A DNA stretch of 54,460 nt, from positions 1-54,460 of the forward strand of contig DASYZB010000084.1 in the NCBI GenBank assembly GCA_035946615.1. Direction: 5' to 3'. Positions 2,553 to 19,444 of this stretch are shown here, in pieces. Below the pieces are notes generated by a model, which saw nothing but the letters and a program-made list of their open reading frames with translations, ran no database searches and had not been told where the DNA came from. Position numbers and translations under genes: made by a program. The stretch's first letter is position 1, and each line of letters opens with the position of its first letter. The DNA comes from Verrucomicrobiia bacterium (GTDB lineage: Bacteria; Verrucomicrobiota; Verrucomicrobiia; Limisphaerales; UBA8199).

Positions 2553-3638
2553 TCACCCCTCCGATGCGCGTCCGACAAGGTTGCAGACCACCATGGGGCC
2601 GCAGCCTTTTACGTCCAAGGCGCGTTGGTTATCAAAGCGGAAGAGGCCCTTGAGGCGCTGGGAGGTGGCCTGGGAGACCTGGATGCTGCCGGGCTGGGCC
2701 ATGGATTCGAGGCGGCAGGCCACGTTGACGGTATCACCCCACAAATCATAGGCGAACTTTTTGCGCCCAATCACGCCCGCAATGACCGGGCCGGCATTGA
2801 ACCCGATTCGGATTTGGATGGAGGTATCGTATTGGGTATTGAATTCTTCGAGGGCCAGCCGCAATTCCAGGGCGAACTGCGCGACGGCCTCGGCATGGTC
2901 GGGGCGCGGCGAGGGCAAGCCCGCGGCAACCATGTAGGCGTCGCCCATGGTTTTGATTTTTTCGAGGCGATGTTTTTCGGCCAGCAGATCGAAGGTGGAA
3001 AAGATTTCGTTGAGGAGGGAAACGATTTCCTCGGGGGCAACGTGCGAGGTCAAGGCGGTGAAGCCGACGAGGTCGGCGAGCAGGACGGTGACGTCCGGGT
3101 GATGATCGGCGATGGAGGTCTGGCCCTTTTTCATGCGCTCGGCGATGGGGCGCGGGAGGATGTTGAGCAAGAGGCGCTCGGAATTTTCACGTTCGAACTG
3201 GAGCTTGTCGAAGAGATGTTTGGCATAGACGGCGTTGGCGACGCGCAGGATCAGGTCCTGCATATCGACCGGCTTGGCCAGGAAATCGTTAGCGCCCGCT
3301 TCGATGCCCATCAGGCGCTCTTTACGCGCGGAGAGGGCGGTAATCATGAGGATTGGGATGGGGGCGGTCTGGCGGTCGCGTTTGAGGCGGCGGCAGAGCT
3401 GGAAGCCATCCATGCCGGGCATCATGACATCCAGGAGGATGGCATCGGGGGGTGAGGTGGCGATGAGGCGCAGGGCCTGGAGACTGGAGTCGGCTTCGAG
3501 GACTTCGTAACCGCGAAGAGCGAGGGAATCGCGCAGGAGAATCCGGTTGGGCTCCTCGTCATCGACGAGAAGGACACGGCCTAACCCGCGCTGAGGCAGG
3601 GCGATACCAGGTTTTTCGTTGAGGGCAGTGGTTTCCAT
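2553..3638 (-). CDS. Response regulator with class III adenylate cyclase output domain
   Basis: A 361-residue cytoplasmic protein. Residues 20-135 are a receiver (acidic pair in VDDEE, phospho-acceptor Asp70 in LLDVMMPGMDG, conserved Lys122 in AKPVD). After a helical linker (LLLNILPRPIAERMKKG), residues 183-345 are a class III nucleotide cyclase. The metal-binding Asp189 (ADLVGFTAL) and Asp233 (TMGDAYM) are present, as are Asn305 and Arg309 of NVACRLE. Lys229 (KIKTMGD) and Asp298 (YDLWGD) are the purine-selecting residues expected for ATP, so cAMP is the likely product. It starts 5 nt after the upstream receiver gene, in one operon with the MASE1 kinase, which suggests phosphorylation-controlled cAMP synthesis. 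Confidence 0.93.
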   Translation of the reverse strand: METTALNEKPGIALPQRGLGRVLLVDDEEPNRILLRDSLALRGYEVLEADSSLQALRLIATSPPDAILLDVMMPGMDGFQLCRRLKRDRQTAPIPILMITALSARKERLMGIEAGANDFLAKPVDMQDLILRVANAVYAKHLFDKLQFERENSERLLLNILPRPIAERMKKGQTSIADHHPDVTVLLADLVGFTALTSHVAPEEIVSLLNEIFSTFDLLAEKHRLEKIKTMGDAYMVAAGLPSPRPDHAEAVAQFALELRLALEEFNTQYDTSIQIRIGFNAGPVIAGVIGRKKFAYDLWGDTVNVACRLESMAQPGSIQVSQATSQRLKGLFRFDNQRALDVKGCGPMVVCNLVGRASEG

Positions 3639-3643
3639 GGTGA

Positions 3644-4069
3644 TTAATGGGAGAGTTGGACATTGCTGACAGGCGATGTTCGCCGGGCTTGGGCAGCGGC
3701 GATGAACTCGCCGACGCGCCCGGCGAAGGTGCGTGTGTCGATAGGTTTGGTAAAGTAGCCATCGCAGCCGGCGGCGGCGGCGAGGTGGTCATCCCCGCGC
3801 ATGGCGTGAGCGGTGAGGGCGACGACAGAGATGTGAGCGGTGGCGGGGTCGGATTTGAGGTTTTGAGTGGCGGAGAGGCCATCGAGGCCGGGGAGGCCGA
3901 GGTCCATGAGGACGATGTCGGGCATGGCGGCGCGGGCCAACTGGAGGCCTTCCTCGGCCGAGTGGGCCTGAAAGACCGTGAACCCGTAGGCTTCGAGGAG
4001 ATCAGTGGCCAGCTCCAGATTCAACTGGTTGTCCTCGATCACCAATACTCGATGGTTGTGCGTTGGCAT
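3644..4069 (-). CDS. Single-domain response regulator (DivK-like receiver)
   Basis: A 141-residue stand-alone receiver with no output domain. The acidic pair lies in VIEDNQLN, the phospho-acceptor Asp56 in VLMDLGLPGLDG, the Thr/Ala switch in VVALTAHAM and Lys108 in YFTKPID. I start it at ATG 4069. A GTG at 4093 would add eight residues deeper into the kinase gene. The gene overlaps the 3' end of the kinase gene by 68 nt in another frame, so the two are translationally linked. It probably works as a phosphate shuttle or competing acceptor between the kinase and the receiver-cyclase. Confidence 0.92.
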   Translation of the reverse strand: MPTHNHRVLVIEDNQLNLELATDLLEAYGFTVFQAHSAEEGLQLARAAMPDIVLMDLGLPGLDGLSATQNLKSDPATAHISVVALTAHAMRGDDHLAAAAGCDGYFTKPIDTRTFAGRVGEFIAAAQARRTSPVSNVQLSH

Positions 4070-6275
4070 CTTTCTTAATAAAGCCGGTGTCACCCTGGCG
4101 GTGGAGATTGCTGGCCGGGTGGGATTCGACGGTTAAATCAGGGGGAGGTTCTTTGAAGGGGATGAAAAAGCTAAAGGAGCTGCCGCGCCCCTCGATGCCT
4201 TCGCTCTCGACCCAAACGCGACCGCCATGGAGTTCAATGAGCCTCTTGGTCAAAGCCAAACCCAGGCCGGTGCCCTGCTGCTGGCGGCCATAGGAGGAAT
4301 CGACCTGCTCGAATTCGACGAAGATGCGCTGCTGGTCCTTGGGATGGATGCCGATGCCGGTATCGGTGACGGAGACGATGAGGCAGTCGCCGGCATTAGC
4401 CATGTGCGATGACCCGTTAGCTGGCGCATCGGCAGTGTGGCGAGCGGCGGTAATGGTGACGCGGCCATGGTCGGGGGTGAATTTAATGGCGTTGCTGAGC
4501 AGGTTGTACATGATCTGCTTGAGCTTGGCTTCATCGGCAAAGAGGGGCGGCAGGTCGGGGGCGGTCTGGACATCGAGGATAATGGATTTTTTGTAAGCGA
4601 GAGTTTTGACGATGGCGTGGACGTTTTGCAGGGCTTGCGGGACGCTGAAGAGGGTTCGAGAAAGCTCGACACGGCCAGCCTCGACTTTGGAGAGGTCCAG
4701 GATGTCATTGATAAGCTGGAGCAGATGGCGCCCGCTGGTGAGGATGTGGTTGGAGTATTTGACCTGGCGGGGGTTGAGTTCGCCGAAGGTTTTATCGGCG
4801 AGGATTTCTGAGAAGCCGATGATAGCGTTGAGGGGGGTGCGCAGTTCGTGGCTCATATTGGCCAGGAACTGGCTCTTGGCGCGGTTGGCGGCTTCGGCGG
4901 CTTCTTTGGCGTGCTGAAGGGCATCTTCGGCCCGTTTGCGATGGGAGATGTCCTGGATGACGGCCTGAAATTCAAACGTATCGCCTTGTTCGGCGAAGAG
5001 GCGCCGAACGGTATATTGTTGCCAGGTGACCTGGCTGTCCGGGCCGGTGAGGCGGTGGTCGAAAGTGATAACGGGCTTTTCCTTGGGCAGGGAGTTGAAG
5101 TGGCTGAGGGGCACATCGGCGTCCTGGGAAGAGAGGGTGTGAAAGAAATTGGAGCCCAGGAGTTGTTCGCGGGTTTTGCCGCGAAACCGGCAGTAGGCGC
5201 CATTAACGAAGGTCAGGGCGCCGTCTGGGGTGAAACGGCAGATGAGGTCCGTTTGGTCCTCAACAACGGCGCGGAAGCGTTTTTCGCTGGCGGCGACGGC
5301 GCGTTCGGCGGTGCGGCGCTCGGCAGCGGCGGCAGCCAGGAGCATGTTAGTAACGGCTAGAATTCCGATATAACTGCCGATGAGCATCAAGCTGTCGGCC
5401 TCGGTATTGGCCAGGAAGGGGCCGCGCCGCTGCAAGAGGGAATAAATGGCCAGGCCAGTGACGAGCAAGGTGCCGGTGGTGGCGCCGCGCTGGCCGAAGC
5501 GCAAGGCCCCCCAGACCAGGAAGGGGAAGGGCAGATAGGCTAACGGGTAGTTCTGGATGCCATAAACGAACCACGAATCAAAGGAGATGAGGGTCCCGAG
5601 CACCAGGCCGGTTGCGCAAATAACGGCCTCAGCGATGAGTTTGGGATTCCAGCGGAAAGTGGCAGGGGTGGCCCAGACAACAATGAACGGGGCGACGACC
5701 AAGCCGGCGAGGGCGTTGGGGACCCACCATTCGAGGACTTTGGGGAAGAGTGCATCCCAGGAGATGGTGCCTGAATAGATAAGGCTGACGACGTTAAAGG
5801 TGGCGTTGACGGTGGTGCCGAGGAAGGCGGCCAAGCCGATGAAGGCTGTTACGTCGCGGGTGCGCTCCATGCGGTTATCAAAGGAAGCCAGGTTCTTAAG
5901 GAGGAAGGTGCAAACGATGGCGCCAATCGTATTGCCAATAGCCGTGCCGAAAGTGAAAAAGCCCAGGGGCACGCCGTCCATAAGGGCAAACATGACCGCG
6001 CCGAGGGCGACGCCGGGCCAAAACCGGTAGCCAAACAGGAGGATGGCGGCCAAAGCGATGCCGGAGGGCGGCCAGACCAGGGCGATGCTGCCCGAAAGGA
6101 AGGAGGATTCTTTGCCGAGGAGGCCGCCGAGGAAATAGACAGCGGTGAGGATGACCACTCGGGTGAAGGTCGTCAGGCGTCTTTGTGATGCTGGTGCCAC
6201 GCTATTAAAAATTCGATTGTTGCGACAGGCGTGGGAGCCGGTGTGGTCCTGGCCCGATACTGCGGCAACAACCAC
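4002..6275 (-). CDS. MASE1-PAS sensor histidine kinase
   Basis: A 757-residue membrane kinase. Residues about 35-315 form a multi-helix MASE1-type sensor (VVILTAVYFLGG, IALVWPPSGIALAAILL and further hydrophobic segments). Residues about 330-450 are a PAS domain (RAVVEDQTDLICRFTPDG) ending in the PAC-like ISHRKRAED. HisKA follows with His476 in NMSHELRTPLN. The ATPase domain shows the N box (NLLSNAIKFT), G1 (DTGIGI) and G2 (GTGLGLAL). A GTG at 6275 is used. The C-terminal 20 or so residues beyond the ATPase domain overlap the next gene. It is the first gene of a three-gene signalling operon; the sensed ligand is unknown. Confidence 0.93.
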   Translation of the reverse strand: MVVAAVSGQDHTGSHACRNNRIFNSVAPASQRRLTTFTRVVILTAVYFLGGLLGKESSFLSGSIALVWPPSGIALAAILLFGYRFWPGVALGAVMFALMDGVPLGFFTFGTAIGNTIGAIVCTFLLKNLASFDNRMERTRDVTAFIGLAAFLGTTVNATFNVVSLIYSGTISWDALFPKVLEWWVPNALAGLVVAPFIVVWATPATFRWNPKLIAEAVICATGLVLGTLISFDSWFVYGIQNYPLAYLPFPFLVWGALRFGQRGATTGTLLVTGLAIYSLLQRRGPFLANTEADSLMLIGSYIGILAVTNMLLAAAAAERRTAERAVAASEKRFRAVVEDQTDLICRFTPDGALTFVNGAYCRFRGKTREQLLGSNFFHTLSSQDADVPLSHFNSLPKEKPVITFDHRLTGPDSQVTWQQYTVRRLFAEQGDTFEFQAVIQDISHRKRAEDALQHAKEAAEAANRAKSQFLANMSHELRTPLNAIIGFSEILADKTFGELNPRQVKYSNHILTSGRHLLQLINDILDLSKVEAGRVELSRTLFSVPQALQNVHAIVKTLAYKKSIILDVQTAPDLPPLFADEAKLKQIMYNLLSNAIKFTPDHGRVTITAARHTADAPANGSSHMANAGDCLIVSVTDTGIGIHPKDQQRIFVEFEQVDSSYGRQQQGTGLGLALTKRLIELHGGRVWVESEGIEGRGSSFSFFIPFKEPPPDLTVESHPASNLHRQGDTGFIKKDANAQPSSIGDRGQPVESGAGH

Positions 6276-6677: not shown

Positions 6678-9485
6678 TCACTCTTGCAGGCGGAAGAAAG
6701 CCGAAACGTTGGTATCGGCAGGAATCTGTGTCTGCCATTGGTTATTGCTAAGGACTGGTTGAATGGGCGCGGGCATCCAATTGAGGGGCGGGGTGAGGTT
6801 GGTGGCAGTGTAAAGAGTGAAGCCCACAGCGCTGGCAGGCCATTGAAGGACGATGTTACCGCTACCGGCCACCAGGGACAACAAGGGGGCCAGTTGTTTG
6901 ATGGCGGAGTAGGTGGCCAAACCCGTATTGGCGGCGCCGGTCATCCAACTGGCCCATGCCCAATTGGAAGAGCACGCCCCCGCCTGGATTCGGGCCTCGT
7001 CCATGGCGCCTTGCCAGTATAGGGAGCTGTTGGTAAAGCGAGCCAGGTTGATGCCGGTCTGGTTGGGGAAATCGGTGCGGATGCTGCCGGATTGGGTCTC
7101 ATCGGCCCCATCGACGTAGAGATGGGCTGTGCCGGCGGCCTCATCAATGGCGGCGGCGACGTAGTGCCAGCCGTTAGTCGTAACGGCATAGCTGGTGGTA
7201 GAAGCGGCCAGCCCGAGGGTGCCGTTACCGGTCTCAAGAGTCAATTTTCCATCGGCAGTCTGGTAGCTATTGACGAACAGCGCGAAGCCGGGGGAGTTAT
7301 AGCCTCCGGGCTTATTAGCCCAGATGGTCTGGATGTTGGTGGCTGCGGGGTCGAGTTTTACCCAGGCCGAGAGTGTGAAAGCGCTGCCGAGGTTGACGGG
7401 GCCGGCGTCCAGATACTGGGAGACCCCATCGAACTGGACCCCGCGTCCGACCAAGCCGGGAGTGGAAAGGGGCTTAACGCCGGTTTGGGCCGGATGTTGC
7501 TGGGCGCTATCGGCATAAGGGAAGCCATTCTCCTTGAGATGCCACACCAGGTCATAACCTGGGGACCACACGGCGCCGTTGGTGGATGAAGCCTCGGGGC
7601 TGGCTGCCAGGGGATTGCCCCAATATGCCCAGATAAAGTCTGTTGGGCCTGAGAGTTGGGGTACCTGGACCCAAACATACGAGGCGCCGTTGGTGTTCCA
7701 TTCATCGATCTCATGGGGAATGACCATCAGACCGCCGGCATCGGTAAAGCGCAGGTCACCGCCTGTGGGTGAAGCGAAATGGCGATAGGAAAAGCCGGGG
7801 AGATTAGTGCTGAGAGTCACGAGCACAGGAAATTTCAGAAGCGCCTCGCCCCGAGCATATCCGGAGAAAGTAATCCGAAAGCGACTCCCATAATCTTGCG
7901 GGTTCAGGATGCTGGTGGTGAAAGAGGCGGAGGCGGGCGCCCAGGATTCCGCTGCGGAATTGGTGGCATAAAAGCGGAAGTAATAATTGGTTTGAGGAAC
8001 GAGGTTGGTCAGGACAGTGGAGAACGTCGCCGGGTTGAAGTGGGTGTTTACTCCCAAAAACCGGCCCTGCTCCCAGGCTGCTCGCGTGACGCCACCATCC
8101 TGGCGGCCCCAAAAAACCCAGACGTCGGCCTGATCATCGCCATAAATTCCCTGGGCCAACGTGCCGCTAACCGATGCGGAGGACGGGTCCAGGAGTCGAG
8201 CCGGCGCATTGGAGAGGCTGAGGCGGACGGGGGGCGGCAGGGGCTGGTTCAAAAGGGGGATGGTGAACGAGGCGAATTCCGAATCATTGGGCAATTGGCC
8301 ATGGGTTTCTTTAAACTGGGCAGTGAGCAGGCGGGCATCGTTGATGAACCGTTGGTGGAGGTAATAGGAAGCTACTTTGACATTGTTGGAATCGATGAGA
8401 CAGTAATTCTTGTTGGTTTCGTTATCATAAATTTCCCAAAACAGGATAAAACGCAGAGGCCCCCAGGCGAGCAAGCGCTGGATGTACGCGCGGGTAAGGG
8501 GCTCCTGGGCAGCGGTCGAATAGCTTCCCCCCCAGCCATATTCGCCTATCCAAATGCGCTGGCCAGGCACAACGCTGGCCTTGTTGGTTGGCAGATTGGA
8601 CTCGATGAAATTGAGGTCAGAATCCAATGTGGCAGCGCTGGCGTTCATCACGTCATAGGAGGAATAGGAGAGATAATCGAGATTCGTGACATAGGGAATG
8701 ACCTTGTTGATCATGCGCTGGTTGATATTTGTGTTGCCGCTCAGGGCGTCGAGCACGCGAACGACCTCGGCGTAGCCAAAGACGTTGACGTTGGTATATT
8801 GAACGGCCTTTTTGGCATCATCAATGGCCTTTTGCCGGTTATTGAGCCAGTTAATCATGCCCTCAATGGCGATGGGGCTCGGATTGGTCGAGGTATTGTA
8901 ATTGGGCAGCAGGTACCAATCCCCCTCCCAATGGCCGAGGTAAAAGGTTTTGCCGGAGTTGTTGTAGTTGGTCAGGAAGTAACAGGTCAGGTCGAACATT
9001 TCCTTGTAATCATCGGCGGCCTCGCTGGCGGAGTAACCGTCGAACGGCCAGGAATTGCCAAAGGGATAGGCCCAGAGGACAAAATGGCGGAAGGGCATAT
9101 CGAGCATCTGATGGCAGGAGGGTTCGTCGCGTGCCAGCGTCAAGAGATTCGTCACGTTGGATGGCAAGTTGATGTGGTACTGCTTTGAAAAATCGCTTCC
9201 GAGATAGCCCTTGATGATGTCGCTCCCCAAACCCTCAATGGCCTGGGCGGTTTCGACCAGGAGCGTGTTTGTGGTGAACTGGTACAGGCCGGCGAAGGTC
9301 TGCGTGCCGACATGGACGTTGTATGAGTCCACGGCGGGATCGGAGAGTGTTCCCGCGCGCGCCAAAGGGAGCGTTAGAAAAAGGAGAGCGAATACTTTGG
9401 TTGCCAAACGCCAACTTGTACTCGGGCCCGTCGGCGATTGGGGCAACTGGCCTGCCCTCCTTGAAATCAACAAACGATCAATCAT
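6678..9485 (-). CDS. Large secreted TIM-barrel glycosidase-like protein with DUF2341 and LamG modules
   Basis: A 935-residue protein with an export signal after a short basic/polar leader (residues about 27-44, VFALLFLTLPLARAG). Residues about 48-400 look like a clan-A-type TIM barrel: Glu187 in GHWEGDW and Glu315 in IWIGEYGW are placed like acid/base and nucleophile, and LRFILFWEIYDN resembles the last strand. A fibronectin-like stretch follows (about 420-525), then DUF2341 (RITFSGYARGEALLKFPVLV to WVQVPQL and YWGNPLA) and a LamG/concanavalin-like module (about 680-860). It ends in the lineage-typical module VLQWPASAVGFTLYTATNL to SAFFRLQE. The catalytic assignment is inferred. The neighbouring gene shares the DUF2341-LamG-C-terminal block, so the two are probably related by duplication. 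Confidence 0.8.
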   Translation of the reverse strand: MIDRLLISRRAGQLPQSPTGPSTSWRLATKVFALLFLTLPLARAGTLSDPAVDSYNVHVGTQTFAGLYQFTTNTLLVETAQAIEGLGSDIIKGYLGSDFSKQYHINLPSNVTNLLTLARDEPSCHQMLDMPFRHFVLWAYPFGNSWPFDGYSASEAADDYKEMFDLTCYFLTNYNNSGKTFYLGHWEGDWYLLPNYNTSTNPSPIAIEGMINWLNNRQKAIDDAKKAVQYTNVNVFGYAEVVRVLDALSGNTNINQRMINKVIPYVTNLDYLSYSSYDVMNASAATLDSDLNFIESNLPTNKASVVPGQRIWIGEYGWGGSYSTAAQEPLTRAYIQRLLAWGPLRFILFWEIYDNETNKNYCLIDSNNVKVASYYLHQRFINDARLLTAQFKETHGQLPNDSEFASFTIPLLNQPLPPPVRLSLSNAPARLLDPSSASVSGTLAQGIYGDDQADVWVFWGRQDGGVTRAAWEQGRFLGVNTHFNPATFSTVLTNLVPQTNYYFRFYATNSAAESWAPASASFTTSILNPQDYGSRFRITFSGYARGEALLKFPVLVTLSTNLPGFSYRHFASPTGGDLRFTDAGGLMVIPHEIDEWNTNGASYVWVQVPQLSGPTDFIWAYWGNPLAASPEASSTNGAVWSPGYDLVWHLKENGFPYADSAQQHPAQTGVKPLSTPGLVGRGVQFDGVSQYLDAGPVNLGSAFTLSAWVKLDPAATNIQTIWANKPGGYNSPGFALFVNSYQTADGKLTLETGNGTLGLAASTTSYAVTTNGWHYVAAAIDEAAGTAHLYVDGADETQSGSIRTDFPNQTGINLARFTNSSLYWQGAMDEARIQAGACSSNWAWASWMTGAANTGLATYSAIKQLAPLLSLVAGSGNIVLQWPASAVGFTLYTATNLTPPLNWMPAPIQPVLSNNQWQTQIPADTNVSAFFRLQE

Positions 9486-9794: not shown

Positions 9795-12700
9795 CTACTT
9801 GACTAGAACGCGGAAGAACTGTTGCGGGCCGGTCATCTGCACGGGCCATGGCGAGGTAGCATTGGGCACATTGTTATAAGGTCCTTGGGCCTGGCTGGCC
9901 GACTGGAGTGTGCCTTGAGGCCAGCTCAGAGTGAGGGCCTGGCCCGAGCCCTGGCCGCTGAGAACCACGGCCGAACTGCTGAGCCCGGTATAATTCTCGA
10001 ACGTGCTGTTCTGGGCGACGGTCATGTAACTGGCCCAGGCCCAGTTGACGGAGTTTGTGCCCTTCTGAACGCGGGCTTCATCGATAGCGCCGTGCATATA
10101 AAGGGCGTTGTTTGTGAACGCACCGAGGAAGAGATCGACGTCATTGGCAAGCGTTGGCACAGCGACCGTGTTGCCTGGCACATTGGCGCCGTCCATAAAA
10201 AACAGCACGCTTCCTGCGTTCAGGTCCACCGAGGCGCTGAGCAAATGCCATTGGCCGAAGCTGACGGTTCCAGCGGCGGTTGTCGCCTCGTTGCCTGCGG
10301 TGCCATCGCCGCTTGCGAAGTCGATCTTCTGGTCGGTGTTGCCGTAGGTATTGACGAACAAGGCGAAACCGGGCGCGCCATAACCCCCGTGTTGGTTGGC
10401 CCAAGTGGTTTGGATGCTGGCGGCGGTGGGGTCGATATTCACCCAAGCCGAGAGGGTAAAGGCCTGACCGAGGTTGACGACACCTGCATCGAGGTAGGAA
10501 GCGCCCGAGAACAGCCCAGCCGTCCCAATAATGCCAGGGGTAGCCGCCGGGGCAACGCCGGTCAGAGCCGGGAACTGAGCCGTGCTGTCGGCAAAAGGCA
10601 GTGCCCCTTCTTTCATGTGATAAACCACATCGAAAGGAGCGCTGCCGGAGACCGGGACCCAGACTTCGCCATTGGTGGTCCAGGCCAGCGGGGTAGTAGC
10701 CGCTGCGTTGCCCCAATACATGTTAATGCTGTCAGTGTTGGTTGCCAATGACGGCACTCGGACCCAGATGGACGAAACGCCGTCCGGATGCCACTCGTCG
10801 ATCTCGTGTGGAATCTCACGCGTGCCGCTCGAGTCGGTGAACCGGATGTCCCCGCCGTCCGGCGAGGCTAATTGCGAGTAGGAGAATCCGGGCAGATTGG
10901 TGCCAATCTCGACCAGGGAGGGGAAGTTGAACAAGGCTTCACCGCGGTCATAGCCGGCGAAGGTGATCTTGAGATGATACGTGTAATCGCCCGGGTTGAG
11001 AGTCGGGACCGGAAGCCCGACCAGTTCAGCAGTGCTTGAAGGGGCCGAGCCGTGGGCATTGCTAACGGTGACCATGAAATAGTTGGTGCCGACGGGAGTT
11101 CCGACCGTCAAGCTGGCGTTGGTGGCGCCCGGGATTGGCGAGCCGTTCTCAGTCCATACATAAGTGAACGGGGCGGAGCCGCCGGGCACGACAGTATAAG
11201 TCATAGGCGTGCCTTGGGTGTTTGTAGCCGTCAGGGGCGAGATGTCCGTCGCGATGAACGGCGGCCCTTGCACGACAAATATCTGGGCCTCAACGCTGGT
11301 AGCCTGGCCATAGAGATTCGTCACGACGGCTTCGTAATAATCGCCGGTGGCATTGACGCTGATATTGCTGATCGTCAGCGTGGCATTGGTCTGCCCTGCG
11401 AGCGCCACAGGCGAACCGCTGGTCATATCATACCATTGGTAAGCCAAAGGCGGGGTCCCTCAGACACCGAGGAAAAGCTGGGCAGTGGTGTCTTCGTTTA
11501 CGACGGAATTGGTGGGTTGCACAGTGATGAGCGGAGCGACGCCCGAGCCGTAGTAATGGGCCTGGACCTGGCTGGAACTCAGGGCGTAACTATACACTGC
11601 CACATCGTCGATGCTGCCAGTGAACTGGCTGTCGTGAGGCGTGCCTGCCCCGGATTGGCGCGACCCGATGCTCAGCGGGGTGCTGGAGGCGAGCAAGCCG
11701 ACGTTGGTCTTGATGCTGGTGCTGGCGCTCAGCACCCCGTCCACGTAGAGTCGCACCGAGCCATTAGGCTCGTCGCAAACGCCAACGACATGGTGCCATT
11801 GATTGTCATTGGGCGCGCTATTTGCCGTCGCCGCATAGACGTTGCCGCCGGCGTCCCGGACGAAGAAGCGATAGTCGTGCGCCGGGTCTTTGCCGCCGGT
11901 ATCAAGATTGAACTGCTCGCCGCCGTTGCCGTAGCCCAGGGTGATGATGCCCGCATCCAGGCTTTGGCCATAGCCTCCATTAACCCAGCCTTCAATCGAG
12001 AATTCGGCGCTTTGGTTGGTTGGGGTGGAAAAGTTCAGATACGAGGGGACTTGGCCGACGAAACTATCCACGGGGTTCAAGCTGCCGAAGGTAGCGGCCA
12101 ATTGGCTGGGTTCATTGGTGCTATAACCGGCCTGGCCGAGGAGCACATTGGTGTAGGCGCCGTTGAGGCCGCCGGCATAGTCGTAAGCGGTCGTGCCGCT
12201 CGTTTCGTCGAGGCGGAAATAATCCATCGGATGATCGTTTAGAACCGTTCTTGGGTACCGGGCCAGGGGGTCTGCAAGTACCGTCATCGAGATACCAGCG
12301 ATGGGAGTTGATCCATACGAATTCTGCACGGTGCATCCATAGGTGCCGCTGGTTTGGGCATTGGCAACGGTGTAGGTCGAAGCGGTCGCCCCACTAATGG
12401 GGGAACTGTTGAAGGTCCAAGCATACGAGAGAGAAGGACCCGCGGCATTGACATGGAGCGTGGGGCTGGCGCCGGCAAAAATCTGCATTGTTGTGGGGCT
12501 TTGTTCGAGAACGATCGGCGTGCTGAAGACCGACACCTGGGCGACCGTGCTCGTCACGGAGCCGTAGGTGCTGTTGGCAATAACGTAGTAGCTGCCGGCA
12601 TTGGCCGGGACGAGCGGTGAAAAGGCCAAACCCGAGCTTGTGGCGCCGGAAATGGCGGAGCCGTTTTGGTACCATTGGTAAGTGGCGCTCGTGCCGCGGG

Positions 12701-14504
12701 TGGTGACGCTCAGGCTGCCCGGCGAGCCGGCATTGTTGGTAAATGACACCGGTTGCTGGGTGATGTAAGGAGGAACGCCCGCAGCGGAATAAATCTGGCC
12801 AATCTGCGCTGCGCTCAGGGCATTGGTAAAGAAGGCGACCTGGGCGACCTGTCCGTCAAAATTCCGGATGGTATTTGCTGAGGAAGCGCTGGCGACCGTG
12901 TATTGGGGATCGCCGCCCAAGAGCAGGTCGTTTGTGGAACCGACAATATCGATGCCATTTGCCGTTGCCGCGGTCTTGGCGAGCAGGCCGTCGAGGTAAA
13001 GGTATTCATTTGTCCCATCCGAGACGCCGGCGGCCATATGCCATTTGCCGTCATTGAAGGCAAAACCGTTTGTGGCAACGTCCGGAAGGTTGGCGAACTG
13101 CAACTCGGGTCCTGGACCTGGGTTGAAATGGATGTCAGAAGCCCCCTGGCCCAAACCAAAACGGAAAGAACTGTCGCTGTGGCCGAGGATTTCCTGGAAA
13201 CGAGCGGGAGAATCGGCTGGGTTAGCGCGGAACCAACTTACGACTGTCAGGGGTGCTGTGCTGGTGGGGTTTAATTCAGCCGGGAGATTCCCCCCGCCAA
13301 TATCGACTGCGCCGTAAAAACCGTTCAAGGCGACGGCCTTCGTCGAGGTCCCGAACCCGGCGTAAGGCGGGCCGTCCACGCCCGGCGTAGTGCCCGGCTG
13401 ATAAACCCCGCCGGCGCTGGCCCCCAGGGTGCCGAGATTACTGGCGGCCGGGAAGGTCGTGCTGGGGTAGCCCGAGTTGGCCGGACTGATCTTATCATTC
13501 AGTCGATAATAGAGAATCGGGGAATCAGCCAGCACGGCGTTGGTATAAACGTTGCCGTAGGTAGCGTTTGTTCCATAGGCGGTTTCGATGTGGGCCTGAA
13601 TGCTCGACTGTGGCAGAACTTCAGGATAGATAGCAACTTCGTCCAGCACGCCGGAGAAGGGACTCATGCCGGAGGAAACCGAGACATCATTGCCGTTGCC
13701 GATCATCAACGGGGTCGTCGGGTCAGGGACATACTTCAAACCCGCTCCGTTGGCAGAAAGGTTCTTCGTGCCGGCCAGGACACCGTTGGTCCAGACTTGC
13801 TCGGTGCTGCCGTCAAAGGTGGCAACGACATGAACCCATTCGCCAAGTGCAAAGCCCGCATGCGCATTATAGCCGCTGGTGTCCAACTCGGAGGACTTAT
13901 TTCCAGTTGCGTTGGTCGCGAAGCAACTAAAATACACATAATCCTGATACTGACCCAGGGCGAAGCCTGCCCAGCCCGTGGTCTTGCCGCCGTAGTAGGG
14001 ATTGCTGGGGTCCGAACCGCCCACAATAACGGGTACCTGGCCCTGGCTAACCAGGGTGCGATTGGCGCCGTTATTGGCTTGAAACTGGGCCCACACCTCA
14101 ATCGTAAAGGGGGGGACAAGGGTCACGGCCGGATTCGGGACGCCGTTTGTGTTGCGGGGCACGATGACGTACTGGCCGGGCTGCTGGAGGCAGTTTAATC
14201 CCACGTCGCCGTCATTGGCGAAGGTGATGCCGTTTGCTTGAGAAATGTTGTTGGTGATGTAAAAGGAGCTGCCCGAGGGCTGATACCAAGCGCCGTAGTA
14301 ACCATTACCGGCGGGGCCCAGCGAGCCCATGTTGGTCGCTATAATGTTGAGGGGGGCTGGGGGCTGGACGGTTTCGTTGAGGGGCCAATAGCCCGCAGGA
14401 TTGAGCGCCTGAACGGCGTTCTGATAAGGTTGAGCCTGGCCGCTCTGGGCGGCCAGCAGCGCGAGGCATGCAAACGCTGCACCGAAGATGGGACTTTTAC
14501 GCAT
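9795..14504 (-). pseudogene. Giant secreted LamG/Ig/DUF2341 protein interrupted by one in-frame TGA
   Basis: A frame of 1569 sense-length codons starts at ATG 14504 with a signal peptide (FGAAFACLALLAAQSGQAQ). Modules in order: LamG (about 30-310), LamG (325-575), two Ig-like domains (580-740), LamG (750-995), Ig-like, Ig-like, DUF2341 (about 1185-1275), LamG (about 1290-1500), and the FFRVLVK C-terminal module. Codon 1015 (minus-strand bases 11462-11460) is TGA. The frame continues without a shift (LFLGV, stop, GTPPLAYQWYD) in the middle of an Ig domain, where Ser is common in such loops. One C-to-G change from TCA would create it. As written it gives a 1014-residue N-terminal product (11460-14504); the remainder (9795-11459) has no plausible independent start or signal peptide. 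The only terminator lies past the second part. A sequencing error is possible. Confidence 0.85.
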
Positions 14505-14624
14505 GAGCTTTAATTAAAGTTGAGGCACTTTTCGCGCACAGGATGGCAGAAGCTGTCGAAGGGCATAATCATATGTTTATATGGGTAAACACTTGGCATG
14601 AGCCGGCCTCCTCTGTAGCCTGTG

Positions 14625-17600
14625 ATGCTGATGAGTCGGCAGGTTTTCCTCCTTTTGTTGCTGCTGGGCCTCGCCAGCCGCGCTGCCGCGGACCCTCGCA
14701 CCGCCCAGCCGGTCGTCGGGAGAAATGCAGACGGGTATCTCGAGGTCTTTAGTGTCGGGCCGGATGGTCAATTGCGCCATCGCTGGCAACGGGCTTCCAA
14801 CGGCGACTGGTCTTTCTGGTTGAGTCTGGGCGGGCCGTTTTTGCCGGGCCTCGCCGTCGCCACCAACCGCAATGGCCAATTAGAGGTTTTTGCCGTTGAG
14901 CGAATTCGTCACACCCTTAGGCAAATCACCCAAACCATGCCTAACAGCCGCGACTGGACCACCTGGAAGGATCTTGGCGGGCCTGTCGGCGCGCCGATTG
15001 CCGCCACCCATGACCTGGACGGGAGGTTGGAGGTTTTCGCGCCGGATGTTCAAGGGAGCGGCGTCAAACATTTGTGGCAAACCCAGGAGGGAAGTTGGTC
15101 CGCCTGGGCCAACCTCGGAGGACACATCGAGCCGGGCCTGGTAGCAACCCCAAACCTCGATGGCCGCCTTGAACTGTTCGGAGTTGAACGCGGCACCCAT
15201 GAATTGGTTCATTGCTGGCAGCGCCAGACCAACAGCGACAGCGATTGGGCGCCATGGGCGAGCCTGGGCGGCTCCGTCTTACCGGGCATCGCCGCAGGCC
15301 GGAATGCGCGTGGGATTTTGGAAATCTTCGCCGTAAACCGCAACAGCCGGGCCGTGCAACGAATCACCCAGAGGGCGCCGAACGCCAGCGCGCGCTGGTC
15401 GGATTGGGTGGACTTTGGCGGCAACTTTAAAGATGGCCTGGCCGTGGGGCAAAGCGCCGACTTGCGCCTGGATGTCATGGGGGTCGATACCGGAGATAAT
15501 ATGCTCATGCATCGTTGGGAGACGCTTGTCGATGGCTCGGACCAATGGTCCGCCTGGTCCGGGTTGGGTCAGCGGGCCCAGCCCTATTGTGGGGTGGGCC
15601 AGAATGAAGATGGGAATCTCGAGGTGTTCGCGGTGGATGTGAATGACCCAACGGTGCTCAATCACCGCCGCCAAATCAGCAAAGCCAGCGAATGGCTGGA
15701 TTGGTCAAGCTTGGACCACCAGACTTTCCAGTACGGCTCACGCCTCTGGCAAACTGACGAGGGCCTCCCCCATAATAACGTTCAGGCCATCGCCCAGACC
15801 CGCGATGGCTATCTTTGGATTGGCACCCAGGCGGGCTTGGCGCGCTTTGATGGTGTGGAGTTTACGCCGCTGAACCTTGGCCCGTTGGGACCAAAGAGCC
15901 CGTCAATTACCGCGTTGTGCGCCGATTCCCAAAACGCGCTTTGGATCGGGGCCGAGGGCTTTGGCTTGCTCAGGTATGATGCGGGCGTTTTCTCAAGGTT
16001 TACCACCACCAACGGACTGGCCGGAGACGATTTGCGCGTCATTTACCGAGCACGCGATGGGGCGCTCTGGATTGGCACAACCACAGGAATGAGTTGTTAC
16101 AGGGATGGCCGATTTATCAACTATACCACCAGGCAGGGCCTCTTATCCAACATTGTCCGCGCTATCAACGAGGACCGCGACGGCAACCTGTGGATTGCCA
16201 CCGGCGCAGGCCTCAATCGCTTGCGAGGCGGGCGAATGGACTCGTTCCCCATGCCCAACGGCCTGCCCAACGATTCGGCCCGCGCCATTTGCCAGGACCG
16301 CGGCGGGCGGATTTGGATCGGCTCCAACAACGGCATGCTCTGGTACAACGGATATTGGAAATCATTTTACGCTTACAATACGCGTTATGGACTGTCCGAT
16401 ACGTTCGTCAGTGCCATTTGCGAGGATCATGAGGGCAACCTCTGGGTCGGCACTTATAGCGGTTTGAACCGTTTCCATGAAGGCCGCTTTTTCCCACAGC
16501 TTAACAACGAAGGAGCGCCCTTTGATAAGGTCAATGCGTTGTTCGAGGACAGCCAGGGGAATCTCTGGGTCGGTTCGCACGAGGGATTGGTGCGCCTGAC
16601 GCCCCAGCGATTTGTCACCTACACCCAGCGCCAGGGGTTGACGCATAACAATGTCATGTCGGTGCTCGAAGACCGCGCCGGGGCGGTGTGGCTGGGGACT
16701 TGGGGTGGTGGCCTGGACCGTTTAAAAGATGAAAAGGTCACATCTTATACCGCAACAAACGTCTTTTCGCAGGAATTGATTTTGTCTTTATGCGAAAGCC
16801 GGGACGGTAGTTTGTGGGTTGGAGAGGATTTTGACGGTGGCCTAGCGCGGCTTCAGAACGGGGTCTTCAGACATTATGACATGAAAGAAGGGTTGCTCCC
16901 AGCTTCTGTGCGGGTGATCTATGAGGACCGTTCGGGCAGACTTTGGGTCGGGACCAGCCAGGGGCTGTGCTGGTTGAAGGACGGCGGGTTCATCACTGAG
17001 ACGAACCTGGCAGGCAAGGTTGTGCGGGCGATTTGCCAGGATACCAACGGCGCCCTCTGGGTCGGCACCGAGAGCGGCTTGTTTGAGCGCCAGCAGGACC
17101 ACTGGATTGGGTTCACCAAACGCGACGGGCTCAGCAATAACGAAGTGACCGCGCTGCTCGATGATAGTGGCGGCTCCCTTTGGATTGGGACTGCCGACGG
17201 CGGACTGAACCGCTACAAATCTGGCGCGTTCAAGGCCTATACCACTAGCCAGGGACTCTTTAGTGACGAGATTTTTGAAATCCTGGACGATGGCCACGGC
17301 TGGCTTTGGATGAGCTGCTCAAAAGGTATTTTCCGGGTGCGCAAGGCGGATTTAAGCGCTCTGGATTCCGGCGCCTTGGAGACTATTTCCAGCGTTGCCT
17401 ACGGCAAAGCCGACGGGTTGGAAAGCACCCAATGCAGCGGCATAGCCAAACCGGGCGCTTGGGCTGCTCACGATGGCCGGCTCTGGTTCGCTACCAGCAA
17501 AGGAGTTGCTTCAGTTGATCCAGCCAGCATCAAAATCAACCTCGTTCCGCCACCTGTCTTTATCGAGCAAGTTCTGGCGGATAGAAAGGTGGTCCAACAA

Positions 17601-18701
17601 AAGGCAAAAGCACCACGACGGCTATCTTACCCTCCAAACCCCACGAAAACCTTGTCAAGTCCGGCGGTCCAGCCTGACCCGGTAGTGGTTCCCCCGGGCC
17701 GCGGGGAGCTGGAATTTCGTTACACGGCTCTGGATTTCCAATCCCCTGAGAGCACACGGTTCAAGTACAAGCTCGATGGGGTTGATACGGACTGGATTGA
17801 AGCGGGCGCGCGGCGAATGGCCCATTACAACAATGTCTATCCGGGTGATTACATTTTCCGCGTGATTGCCTGCAACAAGGACGGGATTTGGAATGATGCC
17901 GGGGCGGCACTGGCCGTGGTGGTACGCCCGCATGTATGGCAGACCCTCTGGTGGCGTGGCATGGTGGTCATGGTGGTTATTGGCGGGGCCGGTGCCGCCG
18001 TCCGCTACATCACCCGAAGAAAGATGCAGCGGCGTATGGCGCTGCTGGAACAACGCAACGCAATTGAACGCGAGCGCGGGCGCATCGCCAAGGACATCCA
18101 TGATGACCTGGGTTCGAGCCTCACCCGGATCATGATGCTAGGCGAACGCGCCGAGGAAGGACTGGCGAGCCAGGAGGATGTCGGGGTACATGTAGCCAAA
18201 ATTGTTACCTCAGCGCGCGACACCGTTCAGGCGCTCGACGAGATCGTATGGGCCGTGAACCCCGAGAATGACACCCTCGAAGGGCTTATCGAGTATATCA
18301 GCCATTATGCCGATGAGTTTTTCGAAGAAGCCCCGATAAGTTGCCGACTCGAGATGCCCGGGGCCTTGCCTGAGTGTGTGTTGCCGGCTGAAGTCCGGCA
18401 CGATTTGTTTCTCATTGTGAAGGAGGCCTTCCATAATGTGTTGAAACATGCAGCGGCTTCGCAGGTTTGGGTGCAGGTCTCGGTGAACGGCTCGACCCTC
18501 GCAGTTGCGATAAAGGACAATGGACAAGGGTTCTCCCCCGGGCCCTCAAACAATGGCCGGAGGGGCAATGGCCTGCATAATATGCGCCGGAGGATGGGGG
18601 GTCTGGGCGGCACCATCGAAGTTAGGAGCGCGCCTGGAAATGGCACGGAAGTCAGAATCGCGCTCCAACTGCCGAAGAGGGAAGGGTGTGAAAGGTCTTA
18701 A
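14625..18701 (+). CDS. Triple-propeller sensor histidine kinase (PLL-lectin-like + Reg_prop x14 + Y_Y_Y + HisKA_3)
   Basis: About 1358 residues. A signal peptide (VFLLLLLLGLASRAAA) is followed by seven repeats of about 48 residues (about 25-365) with the pattern N-x-D-G-x-L-E-V-F ... W-x-x-W-x-x-L-G-G, like the PLL/tectonin-type lectin propeller. Then come 14 Reg_prop repeats (LWIGT or LWVGT cores, about 370-985), predicting two more seven-bladed propellers, and a Y_Y_Y domain (ELEFRYTALDFQSPESTRFKYKLDG). One membrane helix (about 1112-1130) leads to HisKA_3 with His1160 in DIHDDLGSSLTRI and an ATPase domain (KDNGQGF; GNGLHNMRRRM). It lacks the AraC output of Bacteroidetes hybrid sensors and is paired with the NarL-type regulator downstream. 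Starts at 14622 (GTG), 14625 and 14631 are all possible; no clear ribosome-binding site separates them. Confidence 0.92.
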   Translation: MLMSRQVFLLLLLLGLASRAAADPRTAQPVVGRNADGYLEVFSVGPDGQLRHRWQRASNGDWSFWLSLGGPFLPGLAVATNRNGQLEVFAVERIRHTLRQITQTMPNSRDWTTWKDLGGPVGAPIAATHDLDGRLEVFAPDVQGSGVKHLWQTQEGSWSAWANLGGHIEPGLVATPNLDGRLELFGVERGTHELVHCWQRQTNSDSDWAPWASLGGSVLPGIAAGRNARGILEIFAVNRNSRAVQRITQRAPNASARWSDWVDFGGNFKDGLAVGQSADLRLDVMGVDTGDNMLMHRWETLVDGSDQWSAWSGLGQRAQPYCGVGQNEDGNLEVFAVDVNDPTVLNHRRQISKASEWLDWSSLDHQTFQYGSRLWQTDEGLPHNNVQAIAQTRDGYLWIGTQAGLARFDGVEFTPLNLGPLGPKSPSITALCADSQNALWIGAEGFGLLRYDAGVFSRFTTTNGLAGDDLRVIYRARDGALWIGTTTGMSCYRDGRFINYTTRQGLLSNIVRAINEDRDGNLWIATGAGLNRLRGGRMDSFPMPNGLPNDSARAICQDRGGRIWIGSNNGMLWYNGYWKSFYAYNTRYGLSDTFVSAICEDHEGNLWVGTYSGLNRFHEGRFFPQLNNEGAPFDKVNALFEDSQGNLWVGSHEGLVRLTPQRFVTYTQRQGLTHNNVMSVLEDRAGAVWLGTWGGGLDRLKDEKVTSYTATNVFSQELILSLCESRDGSLWVGEDFDGGLARLQNGVFRHYDMKEGLLPASVRVIYEDRSGRLWVGTSQGLCWLKDGGFITETNLAGKVVRAICQDTNGALWVGTESGLFERQQDHWIGFTKRDGLSNNEVTALLDDSGGSLWIGTADGGLNRYKSGAFKAYTTSQGLFSDEIFEILDDGHGWLWMSCSKGIFRVRKADLSALDSGALETISSVAYGKADGLESTQCSGIAKPGAWAAHDGRLWFATSKGVASVDPASIKINLVPPPVFIEQVLADRKVVQQKAKAPRRLSYPPNPTKTLSSPAVQPDPVVVPPGRGELEFRYTALDFQSPESTRFKYKLDGVDTDWIEAGARRMAHYNNVYPGDYIFRVIACNKDGIWNDAGAALAVVVRPHVWQTLWWRGMVVMVVIGGAGAAVRYITRRKMQRRMALLEQRNAIERERGRIAKDIHDDLGSSLTRIMMLGERAEEGLASQEDVGVHVAKIVTSARDTVQALDEIVWAVNPENDTLEGLIEYISHYADEFFEEAPISCRLEMPGALPECVLPAEVRHDLFLIVKEAFHNVLKHAAASQVWVQVSVNGSTLAVAIKDNGQGFSPGPSNNGRRGNGLHNMRRRMGGLGGTIEVRSAPGNGTEVRIALQLPKREGCERS

Positions 18702-18817
18702 GGCTCGTATTCAACGCGCGCTGTGGCGGACCTTGTCTGCTCCCTCGTATGTTCCTACGGTTGGCCCAGATAGCCAAAGCCTCCTAAGATGCCCGCGTGA
18801 TCGCCCAGACTGACTCC

Positions 18818-19444
18818 ATGCCGATTCAAGTTGCCATTGTCGAAGATGATGAGGAAATTCGAGCCAACCTCACTCACCGGATTGGAGGGAGTGCTTCCTT
18901 TCGCCTGCTGGCGTCTTATGGGGATGCCGAGTCTGCTTTGGCCAATCTGCCTCAATTCCAGCCGGATGTTGTTCTGATGGATATCAATCTGCCTGGCATG
19001 GACGGAGTGGAATGCGTGCGCCATTTGAAGGCCAAATTGCCGAAATCGCAGTTTGTGATGCTGACAGTGTATGAGGACAGCAACCGGCTCTTTAAATCGC
19101 TCATGGCCGGAGCCAGCGGCTATCTGCTCAAGCGCACCCCTCCGGCGAAACTCCTGGCCGCCATCAAGGAGGCCCATGAAGGCGGTTCGCCTATGACGCC
19201 GCAGATCGCCCGGCGTGTGGTCCAGCATTTCCGACAATCGCCCGAGCGTGCTTCCGAGTTGCAACGGCTGACGCCCCGCGAGGCCGAGGTGCTGAACCAG
19301 CTCTCGAAGGGGTTCCGTTACAAAGAAATCGTTGATAACCTGGGCATCAGCTCCGGCACGCTCCACAGCTATATCCGCAGCATTTACGATAAACTCCACG
19401 TCCATTCCCGCACCGAGGCAGTGGTGAAGTATTTGAACCGTTGA
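18818..19444 (+). CDS. NarL/FixJ-family response regulator
   Basis: A 208-residue regulator from ATG 18818; an in-frame GTG at 18797 would add seven residues. The receiver has the acidic residues in VEDDEE, the phospho-acceptor Asp in VLMDINLPGMDG, and the Lys in YLLKRTPP. The LuxR-type helix-turn-helix is LTPREAEVLNQLSKGFRYKEI to SGTLHSYIRSIYDKLHVHSRTEAV. It follows the propeller kinase by 116 bases and is its obvious cognate. HisKA_3 kinases normally pair with this regulator class. Targets are unknown; adjacent surface-protein genes are natural candidates. Confidence 0.93.
   Translation: MPIQVAIVEDDEEIRANLTHRIGGSASFRLLASYGDAESALANLPQFQPDVVLMDINLPGMDGVECVRHLKAKLPKSQFVMLTVYEDSNRLFKSLMAGASGYLLKRTPPAKLLAAIKEAHEGGSPMTPQIARRVVQHFRQSPERASELQRLTPREAEVLNQLSKGFRYKEIVDNLGISSGTLHSYIRSIYDKLHVHSRTEAVVKYLNR

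Follow-up and report, generated by a model that had tools for sequence, protein, structure and literature searches.

What is the function of a lectin-like propeller placed in front of a sensor kinase? The question is raised by a gene in a stretch of 54,460 nucleotides from a Verrucomicrobiia bacterium of the order Limisphaerales (contig DASYZB010000084.1, positions 1 to 54,460; hereafter the window), whose product joins a seven-bladed propeller of the PLL lectin type to the two Reg_prop propellers, the Y_Y_Y domain and the histidine kinase of a Bacteroides-like glycan sensor. The PLL-Reg_prop kinase fusion is real and conserved, and it looks like a new sensor layout. The initial annotation of the sequence knew of no kinase with this domain order, and none is described in the titles and abstract openings of the open-access literature searched. 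A search of the same literature found no paper on Reg_prop kinases in Verrucomicrobiota, and the main text of a 2025 paper on five P. laumondii PLLs contains, by a term search, neither 'histidine kinase' nor 'Verrucomicrobi'.

The sensor kinase and its regulator

The kinase gene starts with GTG at 14622 as codon 1, followed by ATG at 14625 as codon 2, the start taken in the initial annotation. The features of the gene and of the adjacent regulator are the following:

14622..18701, plus strand: sensor kinase, with PLL propeller, 14 Reg_prop blades, Y_Y_Y, membrane helix, HisKA_3 and HATPase_c (open reading frame of 1359 residues, Pfam, repeat pattern, hydropathy)
14622..14690, plus strand: signal-peptide-like N-terminus, residues 1-23 (hydropathy, sequence)
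14691..15725, plus strand: seven-bladed PLL-type propeller, residues 24-368 (phmmer homology, model fold)
15735..17576, plus strand: 14 Reg_prop blades, two predicted seven-bladed propellers, residues 372-985 (Pfam, 225.7 bits; pattern and eye; model against BT3049 and BT4663)
17733..17924, plus strand: Y_Y_Y domain, residues 1038-1101 (Pfam, 56 bits)
17946..18014, plus strand: membrane helix, about residues 1109-1131 (hydropathy scan)
18072..18674, plus strand: HisKA_3 and HATPase_c kinase, H-box RGRIAKDIHDDLG at residue 1152 (Pfam, motifs)
18797..19444, plus strand: NarL/LuxR-type response regulator, 215 residues (Pfam, Response_reg 82.1 bits and GerE 55.8 bits)

The Reg_prop, Y_Y_Y, HisKA_3 and HATPase_c matches each exceed the Pfam cut-off, and the H, N, G1 and G2 boxes are all present, so that the kinase motifs are intact. 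The hydropathy scan gives one membrane helix in addition to the signal-peptide-like start. The PLL repeats begin at about residues 38, 85, 134, 181, 231, 281 and 331; six were recognised by pattern and the one at 281 by eye, while a blade profile recovers all seven. The pattern also picked out thirteen of the Reg_prop blades (398 to 954), and the remaining one, at about 440 (ALWIGAEG), was recognised by eye. The chain terminates after HATPase_c, the Response_reg-GerE regulator being a separate protein. All the parts by which a BT4663-like sensor kinase is recognised (14 Reg_prop blades, Y_Y_Y, a membrane helix and a histidine kinase) are therefore found in the window protein. In its own genome the first propeller is single copy and there are Reg_prop matches on four contigs.

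Pfam, the blade profile and hydropathy confirm in this way the layout proposed in the initial annotation: seven PLL/tectonin-like and 14 Reg_prop repeats, Y_Y_Y, one membrane helix, HisKA_3 and a NarL-type regulator. The predicted 21 blades stand as a count but not as extracellular ones, since for this kinase type in Gram-negative cells the sensor part is presumably periplasmic.

Identity and fold of the first propeller

In a phmmer comparison with PDB sequences (E up to 1), the first propeller matches eight distinct sequences, all of them Photorhabdus PLL-family lectins, with E-values of 4.8e-47 to 1.4e-52. Next to the best of these, FG-GAP_3 (over the Pfam cut-off) and DUF346 (below it) are weak generic matches, and were rejected as the identity of the domain.

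A structure model of residues 24-1104, built with five sequences (mean pLDDT 78.2, pTM 0.57), points to the same family. Model residues 3-342 align with PLL4 (8q82) over 325 residues at Z 44.3 and a root-mean-square deviation (rmsd) of 1.6; over the PLL/PHL lectin structures Z is 41.4-44.3 and rmsd 1.6-1.9, and the lectins BP39L and CV39L follow with Z 38.6 and 34.5. The rest of the model matches BT3049 (residues 347-1080, Z 32.6, rmsd 8.2) and BT4663 (residues 347-1081, Z 32.0, rmsd 7.6), deviations which mean that the match holds domain by domain and not as a single body. Foldseek agrees with the fold comparison for both the PLL and the Reg_prop part, and the order of the propellers is supported by the model. 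From its homology and modelled fold, the first propeller is a PLL homologue, as had been anticipated from its lectin-type repeats, and both chance repeats and additional Reg_prop blades are ruled out for residues 24-368.

Sugar-binding sites

Two types of site have been described in these lectins. The polar, galactose-binding site of PHL is formed by R91, E93 and W107 from one blade together with Q155 and W163 from the next, and its hydrophobic site by V172, T194, W199 and W214 (PMC5584973); PLL3 has the same two types, polar and hydrophobic (PMC6943638).

The hydrophobic site has changed in the kinases. At the position equivalent to W199 the seven window blades carry R, R, K, V, Q, M and N, with no Trp, and among the ten fusions that were found in the order (see below) Trp occurs in 3/70 blades and Tyr in 1/70 (aromatic, 4/70). 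Free PLL proteins of the order (11 proteins, 79 blades) have Trp or Tyr there in 56 of the 79, as aligned with a blade profile that was derived from the fused blades. The W214 equivalent is retained, and the window propeller lacks the two-Trp hydrophobic (fucose/O-methyl) pocket that W199 and W214 form in PHL. With the loss of the fucose-type pocket known from PLL lectins, a PLL-like fucose specificity should not be assumed, and the residues make a fucose lectin unlikely.

The polar site tells a different part of the story. All five residue classes occur in the window at blade pairs 3-4, 4-5 and 6-7, as judged from residues only and with Asp in place of Glu at 6-7. Across the ten fusions, the stacking Trp of this site is found in blades 1, 3, 4 and 6 of 10, 8, 9 and 10 proteins, respectively, and in blades 2, 5 and 7 of 1, 0 and 0. 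In the kinases, then, the propeller appears to have lost its fucose pocket while retaining a constant subset of its polar ones. Since PHL was purified on mannose-agarose (PMC5584973), mannose is possible besides galactose as a ligand. The idea of a third propeller serving as a sugar-capture module can therefore be kept in part: the propeller is of PLL type and capture is plausible from its residues, while the fucose-type pocket has gone.

The fusion family and its distribution

The first propeller was searched for in 320 genomes of the order, and PLL matches with an E-value of at most 1e-10 were obtained in 19 of them. Ten carry the PLL-kinase fusion, which rules out a unique one-off event. 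Eight fusions are complete (window, G083, G152, G241, G232, G252, G147 and G239), and two are cut by contig ends, inside the kinase (G066) or inside the Reg_prop part (G238). Partial or broken PLL pieces occur in G010, G226 and G155, and in the frames seen of G009, G074, G148, G154, G052 and G309 the PLL part belongs to other proteins. The nine relatives are 51-62% identical to the window protein, and seven PLL blades are recognisable with the profile in each of the ten fusions.

No PLL-kinase fusion was found outside the order among the samples searched (384 genomes of the class, 387 of the phylum and a scan of named genomes). Four genomes of the class match, every one from the same order, and in the phylum the sole match beside the window (G769) is outside the order and is not a kinase. 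Five loci came out of the scan of named genomes, each under a title of Verrucomicrobia(ota) or Pedosphaera sp.; the scan used two narrow patterns and did not return five fusions known from the order, which its collection may or may not include, so its silence outside the phylum is weak. The named records place the relatives in Verrucomicrobiota and not in the Bacteroidetes context from which the initial annotation had argued.

When the Reg_prop-kinase part was searched in 28 genomes, the fused kinases shared 54-66% identity with the window protein, against 49% for the best of the unfused kinases. In a tree of nine fused and 19 unfused kinases, which omitted G238 (its frame being cut by the contig end) and most of the N-terminally extended Reg_prop kinases, all nine fused sequences group as a single clade (support 1.0); G083, G241 and G252 are a subclade (support 0.978). 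The fused clade is spread over several families and does not strictly follow them, G152 and G083 of one family falling apart, so that the likely history is a single fusion event with later transfer or paralogy. Reg_prop kinases without the fusion are common in the order; G074 has 27 Reg_prop kinase matches at E 1e-80 or better, the most among the 28 genomes searched.

Two contigs of G238 (L073 and L144) carry fusion-kinase copies that overlap with 84.7% DNA identity over 1.5 kb. This overlap rules out that they are halves of one gene and means two copies or strains, that is, paralogues or mixed strains. The second copy, which lies beside LamG1, shows 86% identity to the intact copy across 436 residues.

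Other front modules and free PLL proteins

The PLL fusion is one among several front modules on the same Reg_prop chassis, as the inspection of 16 long Reg_prop kinase frames shows. Twelve share, as judged by eye, an N-terminal domain of about 230 residues, one has an F5/8 type C domain, one a Laminin_G_3 domain and two are upstream read-through. The Pfam scan covered six of the 16, including four of the twelve with the 230-residue domain, in which this domain had no Pfam match. The domain has the motif YFKFHVDPLSD ... GGGGGGWTFSDMAIATSFSDF and variants of it, and was seen at loci L151, L152, L153, L154, L155, L156, L158, L159, L160, L163, L164 and L166. The F5/8 type C domain of L162 is 0.5 bit below the cut-off, and the Laminin_G_3 domain of L165 is followed by a sub-threshold Ig match.

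Furthermore, free PLL proteins of the order carry amidase, D-Ala-D-Ala carboxypeptidase or GH25 domains, or domains that were not recognised (loci L031, L032, L033, L071, L076, L080 and L082). At L033 (2757-8900), a free PLL-amidase gene lies near an unfused Reg_prop kinase and its regulator, as a split counterpart of the fusion.

Genes near the kinase

A homologue of the window regulator (54-70% identical) follows the kinase on its 3' side in six of the seven relatives whose contig continues. Two genes, divergent from the kinase, are the candidate targets in the window:

9795..14504, minus strand: LamG1, secreted LamG/Ig/DUF2341 protein, divergent from the kinase, candidate target (Pfam, frame analysis)
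6678..9485, minus strand: LamG2, N-terminal domain of about 400 residues, then DUF2341 and LamG, divergent from the kinase, candidate target (Pfam)

LamG1 is a single frame interrupted by one in-frame stop at 11460-11462 (minus strand), which rules out two separate LamG genes (9795-11447 and 11460-14504). The stop is either a real nonsense change or an assembly error; the homologues in G152, G239, G238, G223 and G009 have 1568-1636 residues and are uninterrupted. Full-length LamG1 orthologues of 51% identity or more (a cut-off chosen after seeing the table, 51/320 genomes lying within the E-value limit) occur in seven of the 320 genomes, five of which are fusion genomes (hypergeometric P 1.9e-7, relatedness ignored). 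In all five (window, G152, G232, G239 and G238) LamG1 lies beside the kinase-regulator pair. LamG2, at 53% identity or more (again chosen after seeing the table, with 24/320 genomes within the E-value limit), is found in 17/320 genomes, including 7/10 fusion genomes (hypergeometric P 3.4e-8, relatedness ignored). It is near the kinase in the window, G152, G239 and G238, it lies on other contigs in G066, G232 and G147, and it was not found in the three remaining fusion genomes (G083, G241 and G252). The proposal that the nearby LamG and TIM-barrel genes are targets thus gains from the linkage of LamG genes in other genomes, but the TIM barrel attributed to the product of 6678-9485 was not confirmed.

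The N-terminal domain of LamG2 (about 400 residues, 8100-9356, minus strand) has no Pfam match over the cut-off and no convincing relative among PDB sequences, and its single-sequence model (pLDDT 33.9) is uninformative. Two Glu are invariant in six orthologues (YLGHWEGD and WIGEYG), which suggests an undescribed glycoside-hydrolase-like domain. This orphan domain is the only glycoside hydrolase (GH) candidate of the window.

In the relatives, glycoside hydrolase genes lie near several fusions. GH92 is near the kinase in G083, G241 and G252, the fusion genomes without LamG2, with GH2 in G083 and GH3 and a sulfatase in G241. An alpha-galactosidase (Melibiase_2 with NPCBM), which we take to be GH27, lies between regulator and LamG1 in G239, with GH2 downstream. 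Moreover, G232 has GH3 and GH16 upstream, G152 has GH99-like and alpha-1,3-glucanase-like genes about 11-15 kb from the kinase, and the G238 contig with the second kinase copy also bears GH31 and GH92.

Finally, a consensus scan of 14300-14800 gave no promoter and one terminator-like site inside the gene start. Two other signalling genes of the window, both on the minus strand, encode a response regulator with a fused adenylate/guanylate cyclase domain (2553-3638) and a kinase of MASE1-PAS-HisKA architecture (4002-6275).

Proposed function and alternatives

From domain content, homology, fold, family and linkage, all of them observed, we infer sugar binding, signalling and target genes. The protein is probably a two-component kinase that senses glycans in the periplasm in the manner of BT4663 (Reg_prop/Y_Y_Y), has an N-terminal PLL lectin as co-receptor and drives neighbouring secreted genes. 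The two Reg_prop propellers and the Y_Y_Y domain, assigned by homology and model, would be the signal-transducing sensor, and the PLL propeller, to judge from its residues, would hold or select the glycan by polar galactose- or mannose-type pockets at three or four blade interfaces. Ligand binding would then cause the HisKA_3 kinase to phosphorylate the adjacent NarL-type regulator, which, as linkage suggests, would switch on the neighbouring secreted genes: LamG1 and LamG2 in the window, glycoside hydrolase and sulfatase genes in other relatives.

Several observations weigh against this glycan-sensing function. The placement of the propellers in space is not reliable at the mean pLDDT and pTM of the model. 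The Q and the first W of the polar site occur in nearly all blades and are of little diagnostic value, so that the argument rests on the stacking W and on R, which is variable. As for linkage, the two co-occurrence P values ignore relatedness and depend on identity cut-offs set post hoc; G223 and G009 retain LamG1 and LamG2, with no kinase within the 18-19 kb examined; the kinase of G241 has no adjacent regulator; and in the G238 copy beside LamG1 the reading frame changes near base 193 and only the end of the PLL part is visible at the contig start. GH92 proximity is weak evidence, since GH92 is frequent in several fusion genomes (7 to 15 copies in five of the ten; none in G066 and G152). Nor was a shared regulator site recognised upstream of LamG1 (seven loci) or of the kinase (seven loci), where the top 8-mers were no better than shuffles.

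A more elaborate version of the same function, unlikely but worth stating, is that of a receptor with two keys. The polar pockets of the PLL propeller would tether the parent polymer, and signalling would need this tether together with a released oligosaccharide in the Reg_prop double propeller; the fucose pocket would have been discarded once the propeller joined the kinase, and front modules would be swapped to retarget one conserved chassis. If so, Verrucomicrobiota of this order would exchange PLL, LamG-containing, F5/8-like and the undescribed modules of about 230 residues on one sensor.

It is distinctly improbable that the PLL propeller binds instead the cell's own wall or periplasmic glycan (of peptidoglycan type), as an anchor or a sensor of wall turnover and not of food glycans. 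Wall-active domains over the cut-off are indeed present in 4/10 free PLL proteins scanned (Amidase_2 twice, Peptidase_S13 and GH25, with a sub-threshold M23 in one further protein), so that PLL may serve more generally in the order to bind wall material or glycans, and in G147 the gene directly upstream of the fusion kinase encodes a free PLL-S13 protein. However, the fused propellers are unlike the free ones at the W199 position, and the neighbours identified around the kinases encode LamG proteins and glycoside hydrolases, GH92, GH2 and GH27 among them.

We give quite a low probability to a protein-protein platform, on which the propeller, its sugar binding lost, would recognise a secreted partner (e.g. 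LamG1 or LamG2) or form the kinase dimer. Propellers often bind proteins, the fucose-pocket Trp has gone from 67/70 fused blades and the kinase is linked to LamG1 and LamG2; but the stacking Trp is fixed at blades 1, 3, 4 and 6 across proteins about 50% identical, as would be the case for a retained pocket, and LamG2 is absent from 3/10 fusion genomes. A passive spacer or relic, to which the abundance of unfused Reg_prop kinases and the partial or broken PLL pieces of G226 and G155 could point, is very unlikely for a propeller whose seven blades are recognisable in all ten fusions and whose kinases are one clade spread over several families.

If the glycan-sensing function with a lectin co-receptor is correct, it would show that Reg_prop sensors gain or refine specificity through added lectin modules. 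The kept polar and lost fucose pockets make the idea directly testable by mutation, and a single chassis bearing different front modules would be a natural series of altered glycan sensors.

Comparison with known systems

The other N-terminally extended Reg_prop kinases of the order likewise carry an additional domain ahead of the Reg_prop part; in a tree that omitted most of these extended kinases, the PLL fusions stand apart as a clade of their own. With the Photorhabdus PLL/PHL lectins (PLL, PLL2-PLL5 and PHL) the first propeller shares seven W-x-x-W repeats, sequence homology, the fold and, at three blade pairs, the polar-site residues. However, those are free lectins, whereas the PLL of the window is a domain of a membrane kinase and has lost the fucose-pocket Trp in all seven blades.

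The Bacteroides proteins BT4663, BT3049 and BT4673 share with it a sensor made of two seven-bladed Reg_prop propellers plus Y_Y_Y, with the kinase inside. Such sensors are reported to bind oligosaccharides of the very polysaccharide to which their own locus is devoted (PMC3243724). The oligosaccharide sensing ascribed to them in the initial annotation agrees with this; its location between two propellers is slightly different from that reported for BT4663, which binds disaccharides on the entry surfaces of both (PMC5121618). Unlike the one-chain Bacteroides hybrid with its AraC-type domain (PMC3243724), the window system consists of a HisKA_3 kinase and a separate NarL-type regulator, and to the Reg_prop sensor it adds an N-terminal PLL propeller.

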